From: Alphaproteobacteria bacterium
GTDB taxonomy: Bacteria; Pseudomonadota; Alphaproteobacteria; Rickettsiales; UBA8987
Direction of reading: 5' to 3'
DNA length: 64,000 nucleotides
Assembly (NCBI GenBank): GCA_030429625.1
Contig: JAUIFA010000001.1
Coordinates: 347,306 to 411,305, forward strand
The notes beneath the pieces are model-generated. The model did not search any database and was not told the DNA's origin. It worked only from the letters and a program-made list of their open reading frames with translations. Both the position numbers and the translations under genes were made by a program. Every line of letters begins with the position of its first letter. Position 1 is the first letter of the stretch. Positions 1,058-62,628 of this stretch are shown in pieces.

Positions 1058-3064
1058 CTAGAAGCGTGATAGGACTTGTTCTACTAAATTTTCAGCGGTA
1101 ATGCAAAAATGCTTGTATAGATCTGTGGCAGGGGCAGAAGCACCAAAGCCTTTCATGCCAACAAAGATACCATCATTGCCGATATAGCGTTCCCAGCCGT
1201 AAGATCCTGCGGCTTCGATGGCGGCACGTACAATATCCCCTTCGCCAAGAACAGACTTCTTATACGCATTGGATTGCTCATCAAATAATCGATCACATGG
1301 CATGGAAACCACACGGGTGGGGATGCTTGCTGCATCAAGCTGTTCTTTAGCTTTTAGTGCAAGTTCTACTTCTGAGCCGGTGGCAATAATCACTGTCTTC
1401 GGTGCTTTGTCGCTGTCGGCAATAATATACGCACCTTTGGCAGACAGATTGTCTTTTTCATATTTTCTACGTAGGTTTGGTACGCCCTGACGGGTTAATA
1501 CCAACATAGAAGGTGCGTCTTCTTTTTCAATGGAGAGCTGCCAGCATTCGACAACCTCGTTCGCATCGGCCGGACGATACACATACAAATTCGGCATGCA
1601 ACGCATGGCGGCTAAATGTTCTACCGGCTGGTGGGTGGGGCCGTCTTCACCCAATCCAATCGAATCATGCGTCATCACATAAATAGCGCGTTGTTTCATT
1701 AATGCTGCTAAACGAATAGCCGGACGGCAATAGTCGGTGAATACGAAGAATGTGCCGCCAAAAGGAATCATCCCACCGTGTAGAGCCATTCCGTTCATCG
1801 CAGAGCACATTGCATGTTCACGCACGCCATAATAAATATAGCTACCAGAAAAGTCGTCTTTACTAATTGGTTGCATGTAGCTAGTTTTAGTTAAGTTTGA
1901 GCCGGTCAGATCCGCTGAGCCACCAATAAGTTCTGGTACGGAGCTGCACAAAGCCTCCAGCACTTTGCCTGAAGATTGCCGTGTGGCCATTTTGTCTGAT
2001 TTGGCAAAGTCTTTTTTAATCGCCGTGATCGTATTTTTAAATTCTTTGGGTAATTTTCCGGAAATGATGCGTTTGAACTCATCCTTTTTGTCGGATTCCT
2101 TCAGGCGTGTTTCCCACGATTCAGAATCTACCGAGCCACGTGCGCCAGTTTCTCTCCAAGCTTGTAAAATATATTCAGGAACCACAAAGGCATCATGTTC
2201 CCAGCCAATGCTGGCTTTAGCGCCTTTAATTTCTTCATCACCCAGCGGTGCGCCATGGGCACTGTTTTTACCTTCTTTGGTCGGTGCGCCTTTAGCAATC
2301 TTTGTGCGGCAGGCAATCAAGGACGGTTTGTCAGATTCCTGCGCAGATTTAATGGCCGATTCAATGGCGTGAGGGTCGTGTCCGTCAATAGACTGCACAT
2401 GCCAGCCACAGGCGGCAAAACGTGCTGGTTGATCATCGTTGACCGTCATTTCCGTTGGGCCGTCAATACAGATATGGTTGTCATCAAACAGCACAATAAG
2501 TTTGTCTAAACCCAGCGTTCCCGCCAAAGAAATAGCCTCATGGCTGATGCCTTCCATCAAACAGCCATCTCCAGCAATCGTATAGGTATAATGATCCACC
2601 AGATTATTGCCAAAACGTGCGGCCAGTAACTTTTCAGCCATTGCCATACCAACCGCATTAGCAATCCCCTGTCCAAGCGGGCCGGTAGTGGTTTCAATGC
2701 CAGCAGCTTCACCATATTCTGGGTGGCCACAGGTCTTTGCACCTAGTTGACGGAAGTTCTTAATCTCATCAAGGCTGATGTCTTTATATCCAGTCAGATA
2801 GAGCAGCGAATAGAGTAGCATAGAGCCATGGCCAGCAGATAACACAAAACGGTCACGGTCTGGCCAGTTAGGTTTTTTAGGATCAAATTTCAGGAATTTG
2901 GTAAACAAAACCGTTGCAACGTCTGCCATGCCCATGGGCATACCCGGATGGCCGGAATTGGCTTTTTGCACCGCGTCCATTGAAAGTGCCGAAATAGCAT
3001 TGGCCATGTCTTTATGTGTGGCTACTTCGATTTTTGGGCTTTTGAGAACACTGTTTGACGACAT
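1058..3064 (-). CDS. tkt: transketolase
   Basis: This 668-residue thiamine-diphosphate enzyme of the pentose phosphate pathway transfers two-carbon ketol units between sugar phosphates in the cytoplasm. The length is normal for bacterial transketolases. The N-terminal TPP domain carries GHPGMPMGMAD near residue 40 and the diphosphate/Mg motif GDGCLMEG near residue 164. The pyrimidine domain has the VREHAM glutamate near residue 411 and a GPTHQPVEHLA segment. The C-terminal domain ends normally. It starts at an ATG at 3064. No partner pentose-phosphate gene is adjacent. The aminotransferase downstream is co-directional but 119 bases away, so a shared transcript is possible but not shown. Confidence 0.97.
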   Translation of the reverse strand: MSSNSVLKSPKIEVATHKDMANAISALSMDAVQKANSGHPGMPMGMADVATVLFTKFLKFDPKKPNWPDRDRFVLSAGHGSMLLYSLLYLTGYKDISLDEIKNFRQLGAKTCGHPEYGEAAGIETTTGPLGQGIANAVGMAMAEKLLAARFGNNLVDHYTYTIAGDGCLMEGISHEAISLAGTLGLDKLIVLFDDNHICIDGPTEMTVNDDQPARFAACGWHVQSIDGHDPHAIESAIKSAQESDKPSLIACRTKIAKGAPTKEGKNSAHGAPLGDEEIKGAKASIGWEHDAFVVPEYILQAWRETGARGSVDSESWETRLKESDKKDEFKRIISGKLPKEFKNTITAIKKDFAKSDKMATRQSSGKVLEALCSSVPELIGGSADLTGSNLTKTSYMQPISKDDFSGSYIYYGVREHAMCSAMNGMALHGGMIPFGGTFFVFTDYCRPAIRLAALMKQRAIYVMTHDSIGLGEDGPTHQPVEHLAAMRCMPNLYVYRPADANEVVECWQLSIEKEDAPSMLVLTRQGVPNLRRKYEKDNLSAKGAYIIADSDKAPKTVIIATGSEVELALKAKEQLDAASIPTRVVSMPCDRLFDEQSNAYKKSVLGEGDIVRAAIEAAGSYGWERYIGNDGIFVGMKGFGASAPATDLYKHFCITAENLVEQVLSRF

Positions 3065-3190: not shown

Positions 3191-3204
3191 TATGATATAT
3201 CATA
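3191..3204. repeat. 14-bp palindrome TATGATATATCATA, 3' copy
   Basis: This perfect dyad directly abuts the TAA stop codon (3205-3207 on the minus strand) of the orphan gene. The same 14 bases occur in the upstream region of that gene at 3745-3758. Seen directly; role unknown. Confidence 0.7.
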
Positions 3205-3675
3205 TTATATAATTTTCTCATCAGCATAAGTGTTTTTAGTATATTTAGTGCCCGTCACTTTGTTTTTATTCTTGATATTAATAACTCCAATATTCCCTTT
3301 TTTCTCTGTTTTATTTTTCCGATTCTTAATAAATGAGTTAGGGTTTAGTTCCCTCCACACACAGCCGCGCGCAATAGCGTACTTTGCCTTTGTTTTTACA
3401 TAATCTGGGTTAAGGTGGGCATAAGAACAAACAGTTTCAAAGTCATCACAACTTCCTGATAACCAAGAAATTGCTTCTGCTTTTGCCTTTCTCATTTCCA
3501 TCTTTTTGGAGTTGCTCCCTGCGTCCATCAGTGCTTGGGTTATGACGGCTCTCCACAAAGAAATGTCTCCTTTTATACTGCTATTATTCTCGCTATTTAT
3601 TATTCCTTCAAGACAGTCAATATCATCATAATGGCTATTGGCAGAATCAGAAATAGTGTAATATTCTCTTTCCAT
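3205..3675 (-). CDS. hypothetical protein (orphan, possibly DNA-associated)
   Basis: A soluble protein of about 156 residues with no signal peptide or membrane segment. The middle holds a compact conserved-looking helical region (LWRAVITQALMDA ... AEAISWLSG ... DFETVCSYA ... NPDYVKTKAKYAI) that resembles a small family I recall from phages and alphaproteobacteria, without a function I can name. The C-terminal ~45 residues are Lys/Asn-rich and probably disordered. A longer frame opens with GTG at 3708, but the putative promoter -10 covers 3707-3712. A GAGGAG ribosome site lies 9 bases before the ATG at 3675, so I take 3675 (ATG at 3672 also possible). Palindromes flank the gene on both sides. 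It is AT-rich against its neighbours, which hints at acquisition. Confidence 0.7.
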   Translation of the reverse strand: MEREYYTISDSANSHYDDIDCLEGIINSENNSSIKGDISLWRAVITQALMDAGSNSKKMEMRKAKAEAISWLSGSCDDFETVCSYAHLNPDYVKTKAKYAIARGCVWRELNPNSFIKNRKNKTEKKGNIGVINIKNKNKVTGTKYTKNTYADEKII

Positions 3676-3706
3676 CATTGATTTAATCTCCTCGGTTATC
3701 TGCTGC

Positions 3707-3734
3707 ACTATAAGTAGTATTTTTCATAAATCAA
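3707..3734 (-). promoter_or_regulatory. putative sigma70-type promoter of the orphan gene
   Basis: On the minus strand TTGATT (3734-3729) is separated by 16 bases from TATAGT (3712-3707). The -10 matches the consensus at five of six positions. Transcription would start near 3700, upstream of the ATG chosen at 3675. Confidence 0.45.
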
Positions 3735-3740
3735 TAGCTA

Positions 3741-3762
3741 TTTTTATGATATATCATAAAAA
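3741..3762. promoter_or_regulatory. 22-bp perfect palindrome upstream of the orphan gene (candidate operator)
   Basis: The 14-bp dyad seen at 3191-3204 is here extended by flanking T4/A4 to a perfect 22-base palindrome. It lies just upstream of the putative -35 box of the minus-strand gene, a position suited to an activator or an autoregulator. Binding is inferred, not shown. Confidence 0.5.
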
Positions 3763-3967
3763 TAGATAAATCAGGATAGAACAGTATCTCTAGTTTAATA
3801 TATTTGTAGGCTATTCCCCTTTTAAGATTCATAGTTTAGATTGGTTGTGATGGTTGCGGTAGTCCCATAGCTAATTTTAGGCCATATATTATAAAAATAC
3901 GTGACTTCTGGTGTTTAGCGAATATACTTCATCGGCTTTGTTCAAACTATTATTGTGAGTTCTGTTT

Positions 3968-5335
3968 ATGTCTGTCGTTACGCGGTTTGCTCCTTCGCCC
4001 ACAGGTTTCTTGCACATTGGTGGTGCGCGTACGGCGCTGTTTAACTATCTCTATGCCAAACATCATGGTGGGCAGTTTTTGTTGCGTATTGAAGATACGG
4101 ATAAAAAACGCTCCAGTCAGGAAGCTATCGACGCAATTCTTGAAGGCATGAGTTGGCTTGGGTTGGAATGTGACGGTGAGGTGATTTATCAATCGGCACA
4201 AGAAGAACGCCATAAAGCCATTGCCTATGAGCTGGTGAAGAAAGGGCAAGCCTATTATTGTTATTGCTCGGAAGAGGAATTGGCACAAATGCGCGCAGAG
4301 GCAGAGGCTGAAGGCAAGCGTTTTAAGTATAACCGAAAATGGCGCGATGAAGGTCAAACGCCACCAGCGGACGTTAAGCCGGTGATCCGTATCAAAGCAC
4401 CACTAGAAGGCAATATGATCATTGACGATCTGGTGCAGGGCAGGGTGGAAGTACCTAACGATGATCTGGACGATTTTATCATTCTGCGTGCGGATGGCTC
4501 GCCAACCTACATGCTGGCGGTGGTGGTGGACGATCATGATATGGCGGTGACCCATGCGATACGGGGTGACGATCATTTAACCAATGCCTTCCGTCAGAAA
4601 ATTATTTACGATGCGATGGGCTGGAGCATCCCGCAATTTGCGCATATTCCGCTGATTCATGGTACGGATGGGGCAAAGCTTTCCAAGCGTCATGGTGCGT
4701 TGGGGATTGATGCCTACCGTGAGATGGGTTATCTCCCCGAAGCCATCTGTAACTATTTGCTGCGTTTGGGCTGGAGCCATGGTGACGATGAAATTATCAG
4801 CCGTGAGCAAGCAATAGAATGGTTTGGTACCGAATCAATCGGCAAATCTCCTGCGCGCATTGATTTTGACAAAATGGCCAACATCAATGCTCACTATATT
4901 AAAGAATCAGACGGACAAAGGTTGCTGGATTTGATGCTACCCATGCTGCCGGACATAACGGAGCAGGCCAAGCACAATATCCTTGCGGGCATGGAAGGGT
5001 TAAAAGAACGCTCCAAAACTCTCAATGAGTTGGCCGAAAATGCCAAGATTTATATCCATAGAGTGCCGTACACCGAAAAAGCGTTTAAACTGGTCAATGA
5101 AAACGGGCCATTGATTGTTCAGATGGCAGAAGCCTTGAATGTATTGGAAAATTGGGATATAAATATCATAAAAGAAGCAATGAATGACTTCGCCAAGAGC
5201 CACGAGCTAAAAATGAGCAATGTATTACCTGCGCTGCGCGCGGCCGTGTGTGGAACGATGGAAGCGCCGGGCATTTTTGAAGTGTTGGCAATACTTGGAA
5301 AAGACGAAACATTACAGCGGATTGGACATTTATAA
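3968..5335 (+). CDS. gltX: glutamate--tRNA ligase
   Basis: A class I aminoacyl-tRNA synthetase of 455 residues that charges tRNA-Glu. The ATP-binding HIGH-type motif appears at the N-terminus as SPTGFLHIGGARTALF, and the KMSKS-type loop as KLSKRHG near residue 236. Length and order fit bacterial GltX. Alphaproteobacteria often have two GltX paralogues, one of which charges tRNA-Gln; whether this is the discriminating form cannot be decided from sequence alone. The stop is followed after two bases by the start of def, so the two genes form an operon. Confidence 0.97.
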   Translation: MSVVTRFAPSPTGFLHIGGARTALFNYLYAKHHGGQFLLRIEDTDKKRSSQEAIDAILEGMSWLGLECDGEVIYQSAQEERHKAIAYELVKKGQAYYCYCSEEELAQMRAEAEAEGKRFKYNRKWRDEGQTPPADVKPVIRIKAPLEGNMIIDDLVQGRVEVPNDDLDDFIILRADGSPTYMLAVVVDDHDMAVTHAIRGDDHLTNAFRQKIIYDAMGWSIPQFAHIPLIHGTDGAKLSKRHGALGIDAYREMGYLPEAICNYLLRLGWSHGDDEIISREQAIEWFGTESIGKSPARIDFDKMANINAHYIKESDGQRLLDLMLPMLPDITEQAKHNILAGMEGLKERSKTLNELAENAKIYIHRVPYTEKAFKLVNENGPLIVQMAEALNVLENWDINIIKEAMNDFAKSHELKMSNVLPALRAAVCGTMEAPGIFEVLAILGKDETLQRIGHL

Positions 5336-5992: not shown

Positions 5993-6070
5993 GTTGCTAC
6001 TTGCATCAAAAAGATGTTACTTTCAGTTATATTCTATTTAGACGATATAATTATTTTTAGGGGTAGGGTT

Positions 6071-8500
6071 ATGTGGAAGGTATTGTTCCTTTTTCTTACA
6101 ATGTTTGTGTGTGTGGATTCAGCAGTGGCTGAGTCAGAAGTTGAAGCATTAAAAGCACTGATAGAGTCCAACTATGCGGAACATCAAGACAGCTTAAACC
6201 ATATGTGGACTATGATCGCTGCAGCGCTTGTCCTGTTTATGCAGGGGGGATTCCTGCTCTTAGAAGCCGGTATGGTACGCTCAAAGAATAGTATTAACGT
6301 TGCACAGAAAAATATTGTCGACTTCCTTATTGCGGTTTTTGTGTTTTATGTCTGCGGTTTTGCCTTGATGTTTGGCAATACCATAGGTGGATTTATTGGT
6401 TGGAGTGGCGATTTAGCCTCTTTTAAAAATACCGGTGATTGGAATTATACCTTCTTTGTGTTTCAGGCGGTATTTGCCGGCACGGCGGCGACCATTGTGT
6501 CGGGTTCCGTAGCGGAGAGAATGAAATTTTCCAGTTATCTTTGGATTACGTTCCTTATTGCCTTTGTGATTTATCCGACTATTGGTCATTGGGCGTGGGG
6601 AAATCTTCTTAATACTGAAAACGAAACCTATCTAACTAAGAATGGATTTATTGATTTTGCCGGATCAACTGTTGTGCACTCGGTTGGTGGTTGGGTGGCG
6701 TTGGCCTCGTGTATTGTGCTTGGTCCACGTATCGGTAGATACGATGAAAAAACCGGTAAGGTTAACCGTATGGAAGGCCATAGTTTGGTACTCAGTACGT
6801 TGGGCTGTATCATCCTTTGGGTGGGCTGGATTGGGTTTAACGGCGGGTCAACTACGGTTGGCAGCCCTGCTTTTGCTCATATTATTTTCAACACGATCAT
6901 TGCGTCAGTTTTTGGTGGTTTGGTGGCGATGACAGCAGGGCGCATGGATGATGGATATTTTCGTCCAGACCAAGCCATTAACGGGGTGTTGGCAGGTTTG
7001 GTAGCCATTACGGCCGGTTGTGATGCGGTGGATGCGTACGGTGCGGCTTTTATTGGTGCAAGTGCCGGTATAGTGATGCACTTCTCCTGGATAATGTTAG
7101 TTCGTAATATGAAGGTGGATGATGTGGTAGGTGCTATTCCAGTGCATGGTATTTGTGGTGCGTGGGGTACGATCATGTTGGCTTTTTTTGCCACAGAAGA
7201 CAAACTGGCAGCAGGAAGCGTTATTGGGCAGTTTTCCATTCAGGCTCAAGGGGTGGCGATGGCATTTGTTTGGGCATTTGGCATCACCTATGTGTTCTGT
7301 AAAATACTTGATGCTACTTTCGGCATCAGGGTTTCTGCTGAAGATGAACTTGAGGGGTTAAATATTGCTGAACATAAAGCAACCTTAGGAACCGGATTCT
7401 TACAGCAATGTTTAAAAGACGTAGTAGAAGGCACAAGGGATTTAACGCAGAGGATTGATATTGAACATGGCGATGAATCGGCAGAAGTCGCTGCCTATAT
7501 TAACCAGTTTATCGGTCAGATGCAGGAATTGATGCACGGCATCCACGAAGAGGCAGAAAAACTCGAAGATCATTCGGGAAAAATGTCAGAAATTAGCTCG
7601 ATTTTGGCAGCCAGTTCAGAAGAAATGTCAGCGCAGTCTTCTGGGGTAACCGACATCAATAAAGCCATGGCGGAAGAGGCCAACAAGATTGCGGAATTGG
7701 TAGATAATATGGGACAGCGTGTTGATATTATCTCAGGCAGTGCAAATCAGATGTCGGCGAATATGGAAAATGTTTCTCACGCTATTTATGGGCTTACAAA
7801 GTCCATTGACGATGTGGCGCAAAAATCTTCAAATGCGTCTGAAGTTTCTATTCAGGCAAATGAGCTAACGACTACAGCCTCAAAAACAGTTTCTTCTTTG
7901 GCAGAAGCAGCTGGATCTATTGGTGGTGTTGTAGAGTTAATTAAGAATATCGCTGAGAAAACCAATCTTCTTGCTTTAAATGCCACCATTGAAGCCTCGC
8001 GTGCCGGAGATGCGGGTAGGGGATTCGCCGTTGTTGCCAGTGAGGTAAAAGCCCTTGCCGGACAAACCGCAAAAGCTACGGAAGAAATAGAGAATAGAAT
8101 CAATAACATTCAGCTTTCCAGTGGCGATGTGTCAAAAATAATTGGCGAAGTAACAGCTATTATTGACTCGATCGACGAGGCAGTGTCGAATATTTCTAAA
8201 ATTACTACGGAGCAAAACAATACTGCTTCTGAAATAGCTGCCAATGTGTCTGAGGCTGTTGAAGGTACAAAAGAAGTAACCAGTTCGATTCTTGAAATAT
8301 CGCAAAGCGCAAAAAACATTGCTGACGGCGCAAGGCAGGCGGCGAGCAATGCTGAGACGGTGCATTCAAGTATGGAAGCGTTTACACAGGAAGCGGCTCA
8401 TAGCTCAAAAAATGCGCAGAATACGCAATCGGCTTCCGGTGATGTGAAGGAGATATCAAGCAAACTTTCTGGGGCTATTGAGAAATATAAAATCAGCTAA
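6071..8500 (+). CDS. ammonium transporter fused to a methyl-accepting chemotaxis signalling domain
   Basis: About 809 residues. A signal-peptide-like N-terminus ([20 protein letters not shown]) is followed by a complete Amt domain (about 40-425) with around eleven membrane segments. Both twin-His pore motifs are present (TVVHSVGG and [12 protein letters not shown]), as is the DFAGSTVVH region, so conduction may be intact. After a linker with a HAMP-like stretch ([13 protein letters not shown], near 457) comes a long coiled coil with the chemoreceptor hairpin tip ([20 protein letters not shown], near 635), which in known receptors binds CheA and CheW. A longer frame from 6014 adds 19 residues before the signal peptide; GGGTAGGG precedes the ATG at 6071. 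It converges on gltD with a seven-base gap. The likely role is an ammonium sensor for taxis or other CheA-type signalling. Confidence 0.9.
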
Positions 8501-49953: not shown

Positions 49954-50709
49954 GTGAAGAATAAAGAAGATTCAGGTTTTACTCTTGTGGAATTGGCCAT
50001 TGTGTTGGTGATCATTGGCTTTATTGTTGGTGGGATTGTGGCGGGCAGATCATTGATAGAATCGGCCAGAATCACTGCCGTGATGCAGGATATCATACAA
50101 TGGCGTACAGCGCACAAAGCCTTTGAGTTGCAGTATGATGGTATTCCGGGTGATCTTGATAATGCTTCTGAATATTGGCCTGGGCTGACACATAACGGCA
50201 ATGGCGATGGGATGCTTATAACATTGGGTGCGCTTCTTGTTCCCGGTAGCGATGATGACCGCTATTATTTTCAGCATTTATCGTTAGCTGGTCTGGTAGA
50301 GGGCAGTTATGGAGAATTTGTCGCTGGACAAGAAGAGCCGGCCTCTCCTGTGCCCGCAGCTATTTATTGGGGGATTAGTTCGGTACGAGAAGAATTTTTT
50401 GCGGCTAACACAGTTAGTCGGGCAAATGTTAATATGCTTTCTTTAGGAAGGCAATACACAGACCCTGATATATCATTTCACTCTTCATTATATGCAGCAA
50501 TTACTCCCAAAGACGCATACACAATCGATAAAAAATTGGATGATAGCATGCCGGGAATGGGGAATGTTATTGGTGCAGTTGGTCTTTTTGGATGGCCTCC
50601 CGTTCCCAGAAGTTGTGCAACAACCAATAACATAAACAATGCGACGACGGCAAAATATAACCTTAGTGAATTCAGAGATGCATGCCGTATGGGCTTTGTT
50701 TTAGACTAA
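49954..50709 (+). CDS. prepilin-type protein 1
   Basis: A 251-residue type IV pilin/pseudopilin-like protein that starts with GTG. The leader KNKEDSG precedes the mature FTLVELAIVLVIIGFIVGG helix, with Glu at position 5 as required for assembly. The C-terminal globular domain carries GNGDGM (a possible calcium loop) and a conserved terminal block (PKDAYTIDKKLDDSMPG, with Cys near the end). It is the first of three tandem paralogues that share these ends but differ in the middle. It would be cleaved by prepilin peptidase at the Gly-Phe bond. Confidence 0.87.
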   Translation: MKNKEDSGFTLVELAIVLVIIGFIVGGIVAGRSLIESARITAVMQDIIQWRTAHKAFELQYDGIPGDLDNASEYWPGLTHNGNGDGMLITLGALLVPGSDDDRYYFQHLSLAGLVEGSYGEFVAGQEEPASPVPAAIYWGISSVREEFFAANTVSRANVNMLSLGRQYTDPDISFHSSLYAAITPKDAYTIDKKLDDSMPGMGNVIGAVGLFGWPPVPRSCATTNNINNATTAKYNLSEFRDACRMGFVLD

Positions 50710-50798
50710 TTCTTGTTTGTTACCAAACTCCTATTTATATTCAATCTACCTATGATCTGTCTATTTTTACTATATTTAACGTAAAAATTGTGCTATTA

Positions 50799-50813
50799 TT
50801 AAGATAATATTAA
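50799..50813 (+). promoter_or_regulatory. CtrA-like half-site pair TTAA-N7-TTAA (pilin 2)
   Basis: TTAA-GATAATA-TTAA lies about 30-50 bases before prepilin 2, in the same sense and spacing as the site before prepilin 1. Confidence 0.3.
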
Positions 50814-50846
50814 TTTTAACGTTAGTATTAAAGGTTGGGTAAGGGC

Positions 50847-51656
50847 ATGTCTTATGTATGTGGGACATATAATTCAAATGAAGAAAAAGGGTTCACTTTA
50901 ATAGAGCTGGCAGTTGTTTTGTTGATTATCAGTATGATTGTCGGCGGGATTGTTTCGGCTCAGTCCCTGATCCATTCAGCACGCATTACCTCTGTGATGC
51001 AGGACATCACTAAGTGGCGTACGGCGTATCATGCATTCCAATTGCAATATGATGGCATTCCTGGTGATTTAGACAACGCTTCTGAATATTGGCCAGGGCA
51101 GACGGTAAATGGTGATGGTGATGGCTTATTAAATACCACAGGGAATCAGATAACAATAGATAATGGTTATGATCAGGATTTTAATCACTTTTTTATCCAG
51201 CTTTCATTAGCAGGGTTAATTGAAGGGGAATTTACAAATGCAGCTCCTGCATTTCTTCCATCAAGTAATGCAAATAGAGATATAGCATTTCCAAAAGGCC
51301 CGATAGAAGCAAGTTTTTATATACCCAGTTCATTAAGAATCGAAGATTTTTTCCATAGTATTGCTGAATCTCCAGATGGCATAAATGTAATGCTTTTTGC
51401 TGCCCCATGGGGCGATGCTTCAGGGTATTTTTTAAGCCCTGTTTTAGCTCCAAAAGATGCATTTATAATAGATAATAATATGGATGATGGAATGCCTGGA
51501 ACAGGCAACATAGTTGGTTCTTTTTCATATATTTGGGGTGGTCCTCTAGAGCAATGTAATACAAGTATGGATGCAGCAGATGTGGATATTGCGCGTTATA
51601 ATTTGTCTAATCAAAATAAAGCATGCAGAATGGCATTTACCCTAGAAGAAGATTAA
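50847..51656 (+). CDS. prepilin-type protein 2
   Basis: About 269 residues. The leader ends EEKG before the mature FTLIELAVVLLIISMIVGG. Shared with its neighbours are FQLQYDGIPGDLDNASEYWP, the NGDGDGL loop, and the terminal [20 protein letters not shown] block. The middle region (from about 120 to 210) is unlike that of the other two. A TTG at 50835 is an alternative start; neither start has a well-spaced ribosome site. A 125-base gap separates it from prepilin 1. Confidence 0.85.
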   Translation: MSYVCGTYNSNEEKGFTLIELAVVLLIISMIVGGIVSAQSLIHSARITSVMQDITKWRTAYHAFQLQYDGIPGDLDNASEYWPGQTVNGDGDGLLNTTGNQITIDNGYDQDFNHFFIQLSLAGLIEGEFTNAAPAFLPSSNANRDIAFPKGPIEASFYIPSSLRIEDFFHSIAESPDGINVMLFAAPWGDASGYFLSPVLAPKDAFIIDNNMDDGMPGTGNIVGSFSYIWGGPLEQCNTSMDAADVDIARYNLSNQNKACRMAFTLEED

Positions 51657-51683
51657 GGTAGTTTAGAGGAAGGGTGAGGGATT

Positions 51684-52445
51684 ATGAAAAAAGATAAACA
51701 AAGAGGCTTTACCCTAATTGAGCTTTCTATTGTGTTGCTGATTATCAGCCTGATTACCGGCAGCATTGTGGCCGGACGCTCTTTGATTCATTCTTCCCGA
51801 ATTAGTGCCCTGATGCAGGATATCAACGAGTATAAAACGGCAACCAATGCCTTTATTTTGCAATATAATGGTTTCCCTGGAGACATCACCAATGCCACAG
51901 ATTATTGGCCATCGCTTACGTCTGTTGGCCCTCAAAATATGGGCAACGGAGATGGGGTTTTGCAATGGGAAACATTTACTAAAGAAACAGGTTTGTTTTT
52001 TCCTGAATTATCTTTAGCAGGCATTATTCGAGGTAATTATACATTCCCAACTGGTGCAGAATGGCGTTTGGGTGTTCATATGCCGGAAACGGATTTTAAA
52101 GAGATAACTCTCAGACCAGTAGGAGAGAATCGAACAGAATTATTCACTGGTGTGGGCTATTTCTCTAACATAGATGGCGGTGGGAACAGTGCTCTGACAA
52201 TCATAACATATCAAGATCCTTATGCCCAGAATTTAGGTGGGCTTACCCCTAAAGACTCTTATAATATCGACGTAAAGCTGGATGATGGTATGCCGGGAAC
52301 AGGAAATGTCATTGGCGGCAAAGGCTTTCCTGGGCATGTAATGCCTGATTGTGCTACCAGCCACAGTCAAGGCAATATGAACGTTGCTACATATATCCTC
52401 GATGAAACAGATCCCAACTGTGTATTAGGTATTATCTTAAACTAA
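51684..52445 (+). CDS. prepilin-type protein 3
   Basis: 253 residues, starting MKKDKQRG before mature [19 protein letters not shown]. It shares the calcium-loop-like MGNGDGVL and the terminal [20 protein letters not shown] block with the other two paralogues. GAGGG before the ATG supports the start. It follows prepilin 2 after 27 bases. Its stop codon overlaps the stop codon of aspS (convergent, four bases shared). Confidence 0.87.
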
Positions 52446-58580: not shown

Positions 58581-58694
58581 AAATTCCCTCCAAACACATC
58601 CAATAAAGTCCAATTTTCTTTGATTTTCCAACACTTTCATGCTAATGGTTGGCTTATGCTGTCTTTTTGTGTCCAGTAAAATCTAGCGATTCTG

Positions 58695-58743
58695 GTGGTA
58701 TAAGAAGTGGTATGATTACAAAAGTGGAGTGGAGCATACCACT
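58695..58743. promoter_or_regulatory. three GTGGTAT repeats before the integrase
   Basis: GTGGTAT occurs at 58695-58701 and 58707-58713, and inverted at 58736-58742. The last two belong to a perfect 9-base inverted repeat AGTGGTATG...CATACCACT (58706-58714, 58735-58743) ending one base before the integrase ATG. Likely arm-type integrase sites or an operator for autoregulation. Confidence 0.55.
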
Positions 58744-58744
58744 A

Positions 58745-59929
58745 ATGAAGTTAAATGATAAGAAGTGTCAAAATACTAAACCTACTGATAAAATCCAAAA
58801 ATTATTTGATGGAAATGGCCTGTACCTTGAAATAAAACCATCTGGTAAGAAATTCTGGCGATATAAATTCCGTTATCTGGATAAAGAAAAGAATCTTACT
58901 CTAGGAAAATATCCAGAAACAACACTAGCCGAAGCAAGGGAAAAGCATCGTGTGGCCCACAAACAGGTTGATAATGGTGAGAACCCCCTTGAAATAAAAC
59001 AACAAAATATACGTGAGAAGCGGATAAATCATGCCAACACTTTTGAATCTATAGCTAAAGAATGGTTAGAGCATAAGATGTCAGAAAGCTCTGAGCGTTA
59101 TTGTCAAACCATACTCACAAGGCTTGAAATCAATCTATTTCCGACCATAGGTAAACTTCCGATTAAATCTGTTACCCCTGCCATATTACTTGATGCCTTG
59201 AAACAGATTGAATCCCGTGGGGTATATGAAACGACAAAAAGGCTCAGGCAGTATGCCAGTCAGATATTTAAATACGCTATTGCAAGCGGTGTGGCGGACA
59301 ATGACCCATCTTATCATATACAAGGAGCATTGAAGACAAAGAAGGTAGAACACCAGAAGTCGTTACCCCTTAGTGAGTTGCCTGAATTGTTACAGAAACT
59401 AGAGCGTAACGATGCAAGATTATATCCACAGACACGACTTGCATTAAAATTAATGATCCTAACCTTCACACGAAAGAAAGAACTCAGTCATGCGAAGTGG
59501 GATGAAATCAGCTTTGAAGATAAAATGTGGATTATTCCTGCTGAGCGTATGAAGATGAAGAAAGATCATATTGTGCCGCTTTCAAAGCAATCATTTGCGC
59601 TATTCAAAGAATTAAAAGAGCTAAATGGTGATTGGGAATATGTCTTTCCAAGCCCACACAAGCCTCGACAACCTATGCATGAAGATAGCATTCTCAGGGC
59701 ACTATACCGCCTTGGCTATAAGGGAGCTGCAACAATTCATGGTTTTAGGGCTTTGGCGATGACAACTATTATGGAGAAGCTTGGTTATAGATATGAAGTA
59801 CCAGACCGCCAGCTTGCTCATTCTAAAGGCAGTAGTGTAAAGGCGGCCTATGACCGTGCGGAATTTCTGCAAGAACGCACTAAGATGATGCAGGATTGGG
59901 CGGATTATTTGGATGAGGTTATAAAATGA
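58745..59929 (+). CDS. int: tyrosine recombinase/integrase, DUF4102 (P4-like) family
   Basis: A 394-residue site-specific recombinase. The N-terminal DUF4102 arm-binding domain is visible (IQKLFDGNGLYLEIKPSGKK). The catalytic residues are TRKKELSHAKW (first Arg, near 242), HGFRALAMT (His and second Arg, near 332), a His in QLAHSKGSSV and the nucleophile Tyr in KAAYDRAEF (near 368). The frame is open from 58649; ATG at 58745 matches the family start and follows GGAG by ten bases. It lies next to tRNA-Asn, as expected for enzymes that insert elements at tRNA 3' ends. It marks the left end of an integrative element. Confidence 0.94.
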   Translation: MKLNDKKCQNTKPTDKIQKLFDGNGLYLEIKPSGKKFWRYKFRYLDKEKNLTLGKYPETTLAEAREKHRVAHKQVDNGENPLEIKQQNIREKRINHANTFESIAKEWLEHKMSESSERYCQTILTRLEINLFPTIGKLPIKSVTPAILLDALKQIESRGVYETTKRLRQYASQIFKYAIASGVADNDPSYHIQGALKTKKVEHQKSLPLSELPELLQKLERNDARLYPQTRLALKLMILTFTRKKELSHAKWDEISFEDKMWIIPAERMKMKKDHIVPLSKQSFALFKELKELNGDWEYVFPSPHKPRQPMHEDSILRALYRLGYKGAATIHGFRALAMTTIMEKLGYRYEVPDRQLAHSKGSSVKAAYDRAEFLQERTKMMQDWADYLDEVIK

Positions 59930-60480
59930 AGAAATTGTCCATAGATAATAAAATAGATATAGTACTTTGTGAATTGATTGAACATGACGAGTTATCTCCA
60001 GATTCTCTTCCTTTCTTTATATTAGCTGAACATGTATGCACTAAATCAGGATTAACAAAAAGGCAGTTATGGGACTTGTTAGGTGGAAAACTAAGCTATG
60101 AATATGATGCAATAGAATTTTTAACAGAAAACTTTTATGATACTGAATTCCAAATCAAAATTAACTATTCCAATTTTGTTCATTATTTGAAAGATACTAA
60201 TAGAATATCTGAAGATAGTGAATCATTAGACAAAGATGCTGTGGAAGAGTTTAAAGAAACACGAGGCAGAAAAGAAAAGGTACCTTGGAATGATGTACAC
60301 GCATATATTTGTAAGATAATTGTAGATCAAGGTGAGAGGGCGTTTGCAAGTCAAGATAGTTTAGCTCAAGAAGTAAAAGATTGGTGTAAAGAACAATATA
60401 GAGGAGACATCAGTATTAGTGCCGTCAAAGAAAGGTTGAAACCATATTGGAAAGTTTTTGGAAAATCTAAAAATAATTAG
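59926..60480 (+). CDS. hypothetical protein of the integrative element
   Basis: A soluble 184-residue protein. Its ATG overlaps the integrase stop (ATGA), so translation is coupled. The N-terminal half is helical and acidic. The C-terminal half (GRKEKVPWNDVHAYICKII ... ISISAVKERLKPYW) looks like a small DNA-binding module with a helix-turn-helix, as seen in proteins that accompany integrases in genomic islands. I recognise no named family. Markedly AT-rich compared with the core genome. Confidence 0.75.
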   Translation: MKKLSIDNKIDIVLCELIEHDELSPDSLPFFILAEHVCTKSGLTKRQLWDLLGGKLSYEYDAIEFLTENFYDTEFQIKINYSNFVHYLKDTNRISEDSESLDKDAVEEFKETRGRKEKVPWNDVHAYICKIIVDQGERAFASQDSLAQEVKDWCKEQYRGDISISAVKERLKPYWKVFGKSKNN

Positions 60481-60501
60481 TCAGAAATAAAATACTCACT
60501 T

Positions 60502-60530
60502 TTTCTGGCTAGAAACATGCTATTTCTGGC
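60502..60530 (+). repeat. direct repeat TTTCTGGC before the AlpA gene
   Basis: TTTCTGGC at 60502-60509 and again at 60523-60530, 21 bases apart (two helical turns), about 75-105 bases upstream of alpA. Candidate operator half-sites. Confidence 0.35.
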
Positions 60531-60605
60531 CAACATTTCTTTGCTTTATCAGTATTTGTTTGCTTACTTTAGTGCATGTCCATAACAGCACAGTGAGGTT
60601 TAGAA

Positions 60606-60818
60606 ATGAACAAAATACTTAGAATTAACGATGTAAAACAAAAAACCGGCCTTTCTCGATCTTCTATATATGCATATATTAAAGAAGGAAAATTTCCTTC
60701 CAGCATATCCATAGGTCCACGTTCCGTAGGGTGGCTTGAAAGTGATATTGAACAATGGATAGATAGCCGTATTACAGGCGTTCCATTTGCTCCAATGGGA
60801 GGAAATGAGAGTGTATAA
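60606..60818 (+). CDS. AlpA-family DNA-binding regulator/excisionase
   Basis: A 70-residue MerR-like winged helix protein: ILRINDVKQKTGLSRSSIYA, YIKEGKFPSSISIG, VGWLESDIEQWI. AlpA proteins activate or act with the integrase of P4-type islands in excision. A TGAGG site before the ATG supports the start. Its end overlaps the start of the ATPase gene by 14 bases, coupling the two. Confidence 0.92.
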   Translation: MNKILRINDVKQKTGLSRSSIYAYIKEGKFPSSISIGPRSVGWLESDIEQWIDSRITGVPFAPMGGNESV

Positions 60819-62628
60819 GTCATTTGAAGAAGTGCTGTCTGCATATGGTATTCCTTTGCCTAAACAAGATATTGTCGTTGGCAAATTTACACGCTGGGGC
60901 AAAAATCAACGTTATTGGGCTAGACCGCTGTCAGATAGCAATGGCATAGCCTACGGTGATTGGTGTGTCGGAATCAGTGAGGTCTGGCTTGAGCAGACAA
61001 ATATAAACTTAAAACCAGAAGAAATAACGCAACGCCAAAAACAAATAGAAAGAATTCGCCAAGAGGAAGAGCGAGAACGTGAATCTACGCATCAGGGTGC
61101 GATCACATATGCTCAAGAAAAATGGCATATGTTATCAGAGTCTGGTTCTTCAGAATATCTTATAAAAAAACAAATTAACGGTTATGGAATACGTTTTGAT
61201 AGTCAAAATATTGTTGTTCCCGTATGTGATATAAAAGGTCAGTTATGGGGGCTTCAAGAAATCACACCAGATGGAAGAAAGTCGTTCACATTTGGTACAA
61301 AGGTCAAGGGAAACTTTCATATACTTGGGCAGCTCAAAACAGCAACCGATGCATATGTTGTTGAAGGTTATGCGACAGGAGCTAGTGTTTATCAAGCTAC
61401 TAATAAACCCGTGATAATAGCATTTAATGCTGGCAATTTATTGCCTGTAGTAACAGCTATTCAGTTTCAATATCCTGCATTAAAAATCTCTATTTTAGGC
61501 GATAATGATTGTTGGAAAACAGACGTAGGTAATATAGGGAAAGAGAAAGCTGAAGAAGTTGCAAAACGTTTCGGTCTTCGAGTGGTGTTTCCTGTTTTTA
61601 AAAACACTACTAGCAAGCCAACAGATTTTAATGATTTACATTGTTTAGAAGGTTTGGAGGTAGTTAAGAATCAAGTCCAAGAAAAGCGGCTGCGTGTGAT
61701 TACCATACAAGAACTTTTAACATTAGAAATATCACCACCTGAAATGATTTTGTACCCTATTATCCCAAAACAAGGGCTTGGAATGCTTTATGGTTATAGA
61801 GGGAGAGGTAAAACGTTTTTTACCTTAGGGATTGCTCATGCCATTGCAACGGGTACAAGCTTTTTAACATGGAAAGCAGATAAGCCTCGGCGTGTGCTGG
61901 TTGTAGATGGGGAAATGGCGGTTAGCGCTATGCAAGAGCGGTCCAATATATTAATACAGTCAACGGGTATAACGCCAGATCCAGGTTATTTGCGATTTAT
62001 TACACCTGATTTACAAGAATGGGGCATCCCAAGTTTGCATACTCTTGAAGGTCAACACGCTATAGAAGATTACTTAGAGGGTGTTGATGTTTTGATTTTA
62101 GATAATATCTCCACACTTTGCCGGAATGGTCGAGAAAATGAAGCTGAGAGTTGGGTTCCAATACAAGAATGGGCTTTGAAATTACGGCGCAAAGGAACAT
62201 CTGTTCTGTTTATTCACCATGCAGGCAAGGGAGAGACGCAGAGGGGAACCACAAAACGTGAGGATGTGCTCGATACGGTAATTGCTCTTAAAACACCAGC
62301 AGATTATGAAGAAAGTCAAGGTGTAAGAGTTGAAGTTCATTATGAAAAACATCGACACTTTTATGGAGACGACGCAAAACCATTTGAAGCTCAGTTAATT
62401 ACTGAAAACGGATTACAACATTGGAAAGTAACAAAGCTCGAAGACACATTACTTGAACAGGTTGTTGAAATGGCGAAGGATGGCATGAAGCAGAGAGAGA
62501 TTGCTTTAGAATTGGAGGTTAGTCTTGCTAAAGTAAATCGTACTTTGAAACAAGCTAAGGAAAAGGGAATTTATAAAAATAACCCCTTTGTAATGCGATG
62601 TTTCATTGTTTCAGTGCTTAGATGGTGA
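60805..62628 (+). CDS. Toprim + RecA-like ATPase replication-type protein
   Basis: About 607 residues. An N-terminal domain (about 1-130) is followed by a Toprim domain (VVEGYATGASV near 186, ILGDND near 231, and KPTDFNDLH). A RecA-like AAA_25 ATPase follows, with Walker A GYRGRGKT near 330, Walker B VLILDNIST near 430 and LFIHHAGKG near 467. A short helix-turn-helix lies near the C-terminus (MKQREIALELEVSLAKVNRTL). The combination is typical of primase-helicase proteins of plasmids and integrative elements and may support replication of an excised form. ATG at 60805 or GTG at 60811 are both possible; GGGAGG precedes them. Confidence 0.88.
   Translation: MRVYKSFEEVLSAYGIPLPKQDIVVGKFTRWGKNQRYWARPLSDSNGIAYGDWCVGISEVWLEQTNINLKPEEITQRQKQIERIRQEEERERESTHQGAITYAQEKWHMLSESGSSEYLIKKQINGYGIRFDSQNIVVPVCDIKGQLWGLQEITPDGRKSFTFGTKVKGNFHILGQLKTATDAYVVEGYATGASVYQATNKPVIIAFNAGNLLPVVTAIQFQYPALKISILGDNDCWKTDVGNIGKEKAEEVAKRFGLRVVFPVFKNTTSKPTDFNDLHCLEGLEVVKNQVQEKRLRVITIQELLTLEISPPEMILYPIIPKQGLGMLYGYRGRGKTFFTLGIAHAIATGTSFLTWKADKPRRVLVVDGEMAVSAMQERSNILIQSTGITPDPGYLRFITPDLQEWGIPSLHTLEGQHAIEDYLEGVDVLILDNISTLCRNGRENEAESWVPIQEWALKLRRKGTSVLFIHHAGKGETQRGTTKREDVLDTVIALKTPADYEESQGVRVEVHYEKHRHFYGDDAKPFEAQLITENGLQHWKVTKLEDTLLEQVVEMAKDGMKQREIALELEVSLAKVNRTLKQAKEKGIYKNNPFVMRCFIVSVLRW

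Follow-up and report, generated by a model that had tools for sequence, protein, structure and literature searches.

A small gene in the Rickettsiales genome G000 is bracketed by two copies of one palindrome, and the question raised by this locus is what the two copies are for: the initial annotation of the window (the whole stretch of DNA analysed, 64,000 nt) suggested either autoregulation by the encoded protein or the ends of a tiny mobile or selfish unit. The 14-base dyad TATGATATATCATA was found exactly where it had been described, at 3191–3204, behind the stop codon of the gene (gene1; stop codon 3205–3207, minus strand), and at 3745–3758, upstream of it. The upstream copy is extended, as claimed, and the perfect palindrome around it measures 28 bp rather than 22. 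A promoter-like sequence does lie just 3′ of this palindrome, with its −35 element starting 17 nt past the palindrome’s centre. Promoter-like matches are abundant in the region (18 versus 4.3 in shuffled sequence), so TTGATT-16-TATAGT alone carries little weight. The longest gene1 ORF begins with a GTG at 3708, adjacent to the −10 element; judged by reading, the ATG at 3678, behind the Shine-Dalgarno-like GAGGAG (3693–3688), is more likely the true start and yields a protein of 157 amino acids. The features of the locus are collected in the table.

Table. Features of the gene1 locus, in window coordinates
Feature	Position	Strand	Basis or remark
gene1, 157-aa phage-derived helical protein	3205–3678	−	ORF, homologues, AlphaFold four-helix core
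Perfect 28-bp palindrome, proposed gene1 operator	3738–3765	none	centre between 3751 and 3752
Promoter-like TTGATT-16-TATAGT	3707–3734 (minus strand 3734–3707)	−	consensus match only
Trailing copy of the exact 14-bp dyad, proposed to remain from the operator of a lost gene2	3191–3204	none	directly after gene1 stop
gltX, conserved upstream neighbour	3968–5335	+	ORF, named by reading
tkt (transketolase), conserved downstream neighbour	1058–3064	−	ORF, named by reading

The pair of dyads is well beyond chance, in agreement with the initial annotation. Allowing at most one mismatch to TATGATATATCATA, the window holds two copies against a shuffle mean of 0.02, and the same two are the sole ones in the 1.84-Mb genome, where the reversed control gave 0. 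By a rough independent-base estimate, 0.009 to 0.08 perfect palindromes of 28 bp are expected per genome. Many copies scattered through AT-rich gaps, which would speak against a link with the gene, were not what we found: the looser 14-mer TWKGATATWTCMWA gave three further full matches in G000, all of them within ORFs. At two mismatches to TWKGATATATCMWA there were 107 matches versus 75 for the reversed control, and the special status of the dyad is therefore limited to its strict form. A wider regulon was not apparent in G000, where 13 loci with one or two mismatches (the window sites apart) fall in ORFs or ahead of unrelated genes.

The gene had been called an orphan, which it is not. Homologues are present in 41 of 55 Rickettsiales genomes, G000 counted (best E value per positive genome at most 4.9e-4), and share the core LWRAVITQALMDA...AI.WL....DF..VC..A.L.P.YVR. 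A contig search with the single gene1 protein as query found no relative, and comparison with Pfam, NCBIfam and PHROGs gave no convincing family match. AlphaFold predicts helices at residues 33–53, 60–73, 78–86 and 91–104, with pLDDT of 94–97 over most of the core and poorly predicted ends. Searches of the PDB with this fold (Foldseek and VIA-align) returned nothing significant, the best VIA-align rows being ribosomal protein bS20, a helical bundle, at Z 5.8; because the PDB holds no significant fold match, a helix-turn-helix is not established for gene1. At the sequence level, one lysozyme chain among solved structures reached an E value of 0.0083 with no stretch significant alone, and we took it as chance.

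Among predicted viral structures, the fold did find matches. In BFVD, the first eleven Foldseek rows all had probability 1.00; every named entry among them is a protein of a phage or an uncultured virus. The match is to tailed-phage proteins (such as Pelagibacter phage HTVC103P gp32; BFVD A0A0A0UZV2), which share the gene1 fold and differ in being phage-borne and uncharacterised; gp32 also scored 44.9 bits against the gene1 profile. Beyond Rickettsiales, gene1 was found in 11 of 287 sampled alphaproteobacterial genomes, several times amid phage genes (by reading), and some phage homologues sit among tail and other genes. Matches in Wolbachia phages (tblastn, E values of 2–6) were not significant. 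Overall, gene1 is a Rickettsiales gene of phage origin that is conserved and has a dyad at its own promoter.

Similar dyads stand ahead of gene1 in several other lineages. For this comparison, L009 and L010 (copies of L001) were dropped, as were eight loci repeated between collections; the shuffle test leaves out L029 and L030, which have no upstream sequence, and the 8-mer count covers 48 of 53 loci, with L063, L064 and L019 set aside as near duplicates. When the best match to TTATGATATATCATAA was compared with dinucleotide shuffles in 50 other gene1 upstream regions, 10 reached p < 0.05 and six reached p < 0.01 (combined p 2e-4), and the remaining 40 had no dyad at p < 0.05; the site is therefore plain to see in some lineages but cannot be recognised in the majority. 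A consensus-free count over 48 upstream regions returned GATATATC as the most enriched 8-mer, at eight loci versus 0.23 expected. Across the 54 other Rickettsiales genomes, 11 sites lie within one mismatch of the 16-mer, four ahead of gene1 (in G004, G013, G016 and G036) and seven elsewhere; the chance of four in 11 falling ahead of gene1 is about 1e-13. Upstream of gene1 across Rickettsiales, enrichment was also seen for another motif, CCGGAAG/CACTTCC.

At the best five loci, one of them that of the window, the dyad centre lies 15–17 nt before a −35-like hexamer that starts with TTG, and a −10-like hexamer follows 16–18 nt further on, which places the dyad centre at about −52. The ten weaker loci do not share this spacing, L057 excepted. 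A conserved site is thus present at gene1’s own promoter, strong in a minority of lineages only, and its position near −52, outside the core promoter, would fit an activator better than a blocking repressor. What stands of the suggested autoregulation is the link between dyad and gene: homologues in other families are preceded by the dyad as well, and among the best loci its distance from the promoter is fixed. This link supports autoregulation, which we consider likely.

The trailing copy finds its counterpart in G016, a genome of another GTDB family, whose locus (L119) reads gltX, dyad, gene1, dyad, gene2, tkt, and whose only strict-pattern sites are the two that flank gene1. G004 (L126) likewise has a dyad on both sides of gene1, in the order gene1, dyad, gene2. 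The neighbours are conserved more widely: gltX adjoins gene1 in L119, L015, L022, L053 and L054, and tkt in L119, L015, L053 and L056. A search of G000 for gene2 found none, the best hit being a 27-codon frame at an E value of 0.16. The window carries a G016-type locus without gene2, and the trailing dyad is therefore best read, and most simply, as a leftover gene1/gene2 operator after what would have been the loss of gene2. By eye, a TTAGTT begins 17 nt past the centre of the trailing dyad, as TTGATT does past the first; the promoter scan lists none there. The palindrome does not always flank this gene family on both sides: most gene1 homologues have at most the upstream dyad.

gene2 encodes a protein that starts with RGRP and contains ...IT..QH.AG.HLRWLYT.RFG.... 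Its profile matched 17 DUF6456 sequences with a probability of 95.4% (score 56.7); a divergent DUF6456 subset gave 95.9% (59.6), and the canonical subset alone 7% (24.7). Controls scored at most 17.4 with 60 column-shuffled profiles and 12.9 with the reversed profile. Judged by these profiles, gene2 is a remote DUF6456 protein of the GafZ/GafA type. DUF6456 is an annotation name for GafA homologues in passages of two papers (PMC9638019; PMC9765227). Among 14 control genomes, the family was found in Caulobacter only. gene2 had no match among solved structures by sequence, and none by Foldseek against the PDB. The two genes lie within 1.5 kb of each other in 15 genomes, and gene2 is absent from 22 of the 41 genomes with gene1; a gene with remote DUF6456 homology directly downstream of gene1 occurs in relatives and not in the window genome. 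Outside Rickettsiales, gene1 of prophage L206 has an XRE-like gene divergent from it and is followed by a DUF6456-like protein and then a terminase-like ORF (by reading); against the DUF6456 set the protein after gene1 scored 27.3 bits, against the gene2 profile 10.6.

We found gene1 in the company of genes of the gene transfer agent (GTA) type. A GTA-type terminase of one type is present in 43 of the 55 genomes: both genes occur in 39, gene1 only in two, the terminase only in four and neither in 10 (Fisher p 1.9e-6). The corresponding counts are 32/1/2/5 when the 40 genomes of 90% completeness or more are taken (p 1.8e-4) and 25/1/0/3 by family (p 0.001), counting by family being the sole way in which kinship is taken into account. 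For gene1 and GTA_TIM they are 37/4/4/10 (p 2.4e-5), with a p of only 0.10 by family. Within 6 kb of the terminase, gene1 was found in eight genomes and gene2 in six (G012 included). G000 itself holds genes for a GTA-type terminase, portal, protease, HK97 capsid, connector, head closure and GTA_TIM. The terminase opens a partial RcGTA-like head cluster at approximately 366.9–373.5 kb of C6 (L135 14864–20000 and L136 1–1467), in which an NlpC-type protein fell below its cut-off; the cluster itself is without the tail genes between, and the two GTA_TIM genes, at C6:225300 and C6:403377, stand apart from it and have long open frames. A small helical-looking gene often precedes the terminase immediately or separates it from gene1 (L013 1048–1389, L063 2514–2888, L141 6289–6675, L135 14864–15295) and could be the module's third member; its G000 copy had no NCBIfam match.

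The upstream regions of the terminase in eight genomes contained no convincing dyad (one of eight at p 0.03), and none of 10 dyad sites or regions in other genomes adjoins GTA genes. The dyad therefore seems dedicated to gene1 itself, and control of the GTA genes by gene1, which we infer from company, partner and precedent, is plausible. In print, according to the passages available from each source, GTA genes in Rickettsiales appear for Orientia (PMC10732058), while for Wolbachia there is a proposal of a GTA (PMC10299305); a table in a machine-learning survey enters 70 Rickettsiales genomes with 0 in a last column for which the passage gives no heading (PMC6821227). Within the extracts retrieved on DUF6456, and on Rickettsiales with GafA and gene transfer agent, no Rickettsiales GTA regulator is described.

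GafY and GafZ of Caulobacter and GafA of Rhodobacter are activators of RcGTA-type gene transfer agents. As described in passages of the respective papers, GafY and GafZ jointly switch on the Caulobacter GTA (PMC9632790; PMC11150451), and GafA autoregulates and binds its own promoter (PMC9638019). The likeness extends to the two successive small genes of the 15 genomes, the second being the DUF6456 relative, to the GTA-type genes that genomes with gene1 also hold, and to an XRE-like ORF divergent from gene1 in some loci. The systems differ in that gene1 is not homologous to GafY or to DnaA domain IV by profile, in that gene2 is without the canonical length and absent from the window genome, and in the conserved dyad near −52, with none at the terminase genes tested. 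As a candidate GafY, gene1 was rejected: hhalign of 46 gene1 sequences (of 53; seven rows, and any without the core motif, were left out) against 21 GafY sequences gave a probability of 0.9% and a score of 16.1, with shuffles up to 14.2, whereas the positive control, GafY against DnaA domain IV, gave 99.2%.

These results suggest, with a probability of about 0.5, that gene1 is a regulator of phage origin which controls its own expression and is associated with the Rickettsiales GTA, and that the trailing dyad is a site left by a lost gene2. Under this model, Rickettsiales would have kept a small helical regulator of phage origin along with GTA genes. The protein, perhaps with its DUF6456 partner, would bind the GATATATC-centred dyad some 52 bp ahead of the point where its own transcript begins and adjust the level at which it is expressed, most probably by activation, in the manner of GafA in Rhodobacter. 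The ancestral locus would have read gltX, dyad, gene1, dyad, gene2, tkt, with its own site for each gene; the window lineage would then have lost gene2, and the second dyad would have remained between the gene1 stop codon and tkt. DNA binding by gene1, the sign of its autoregulation, control of the GTA and the loss of gene2 are all steps that we infer. More tentatively, an order-wide Rickettsiales GTA might be under a two-protein switch of its own, made of the phage-derived helical regulator and its DUF6456 partner with GATATATC dyads ahead of each gene, in which the helical protein replaces GafY and which may survive in part after loss of the partner, as in the window. Helical regulators of the gene1 type would form a family without a Pfam, NCBIfam or PHROGs entry.

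The strongest competitor, which we nevertheless regard as doubtful, has the dyad as the operator of another regulator that controls gene1, such as an XRE-type repressor, so that gene1 would not be the binder. XRE- or repressor-like ORFs stand divergent from gene1 in L034, L037, L038, L042 and prophage L206 (by reading), and a passage on Caulobacter offers a precedent in RogA, which represses gafYZ (PMC9632790). However, no XRE- or repressor-like gene adjoins gene1 in the window, the dyad belongs to a single locus, and at about −52 it leaves the core promoter uncovered. That gene1 is instead a small-terminase-like protein for DNA packaging, which would recognise DNA at the dyads, is improbable: in L040 a terminase-like gene follows gene1 directly on its 3′ side, and gene1 lies near the terminase in the eight genomes mentioned, but L203 has both gene1 and a separate small-terminase-like ORF before the large terminase (by reading), and the dyads hold a fixed place relative to the promoter.

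The palindromes might also act as RNA hairpins, in a terminator or leader. On the gene strand, the 28-bp palindrome folds into a 12-pair stem of −10 kcal/mol (z −3.6); since it lies upstream of the promoter, since shuffled sequence folds as well as the trailing copy (z 0.25) and since a terminator scan lists neither palindrome, we consider this quite improbable. The mobile or selfish unit of the initial annotation is unlikely too, and in our judgement the least probable of the readings: identical palindromes on both sides of one gene would suit such a unit, but G000 has one such pair, at a single locus, the gltX and tkt neighbours recur in other families, and the second dyad is missing in most homologues.

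Many Rickettsiales, Orientia included, have kept GTA genes, which may or may not be functional; a candidate regulator that is conserved and has a defined DNA site would make it testable whether and when such a GTA is switched on. The locus also illustrates how an orphaned operator could remain after loss of a partner gene. Elsewhere in the window, an ammonium-transporter-like protein is fused to a chemoreceptor-like signalling part (6014–8500), three similar pilin-like ORFs stand in tandem (49954–52445), and a possible integrated element lies near the right end (58649–62628), where a primase/helicase-like ORF comes after an integrase-like one, all named by reading.
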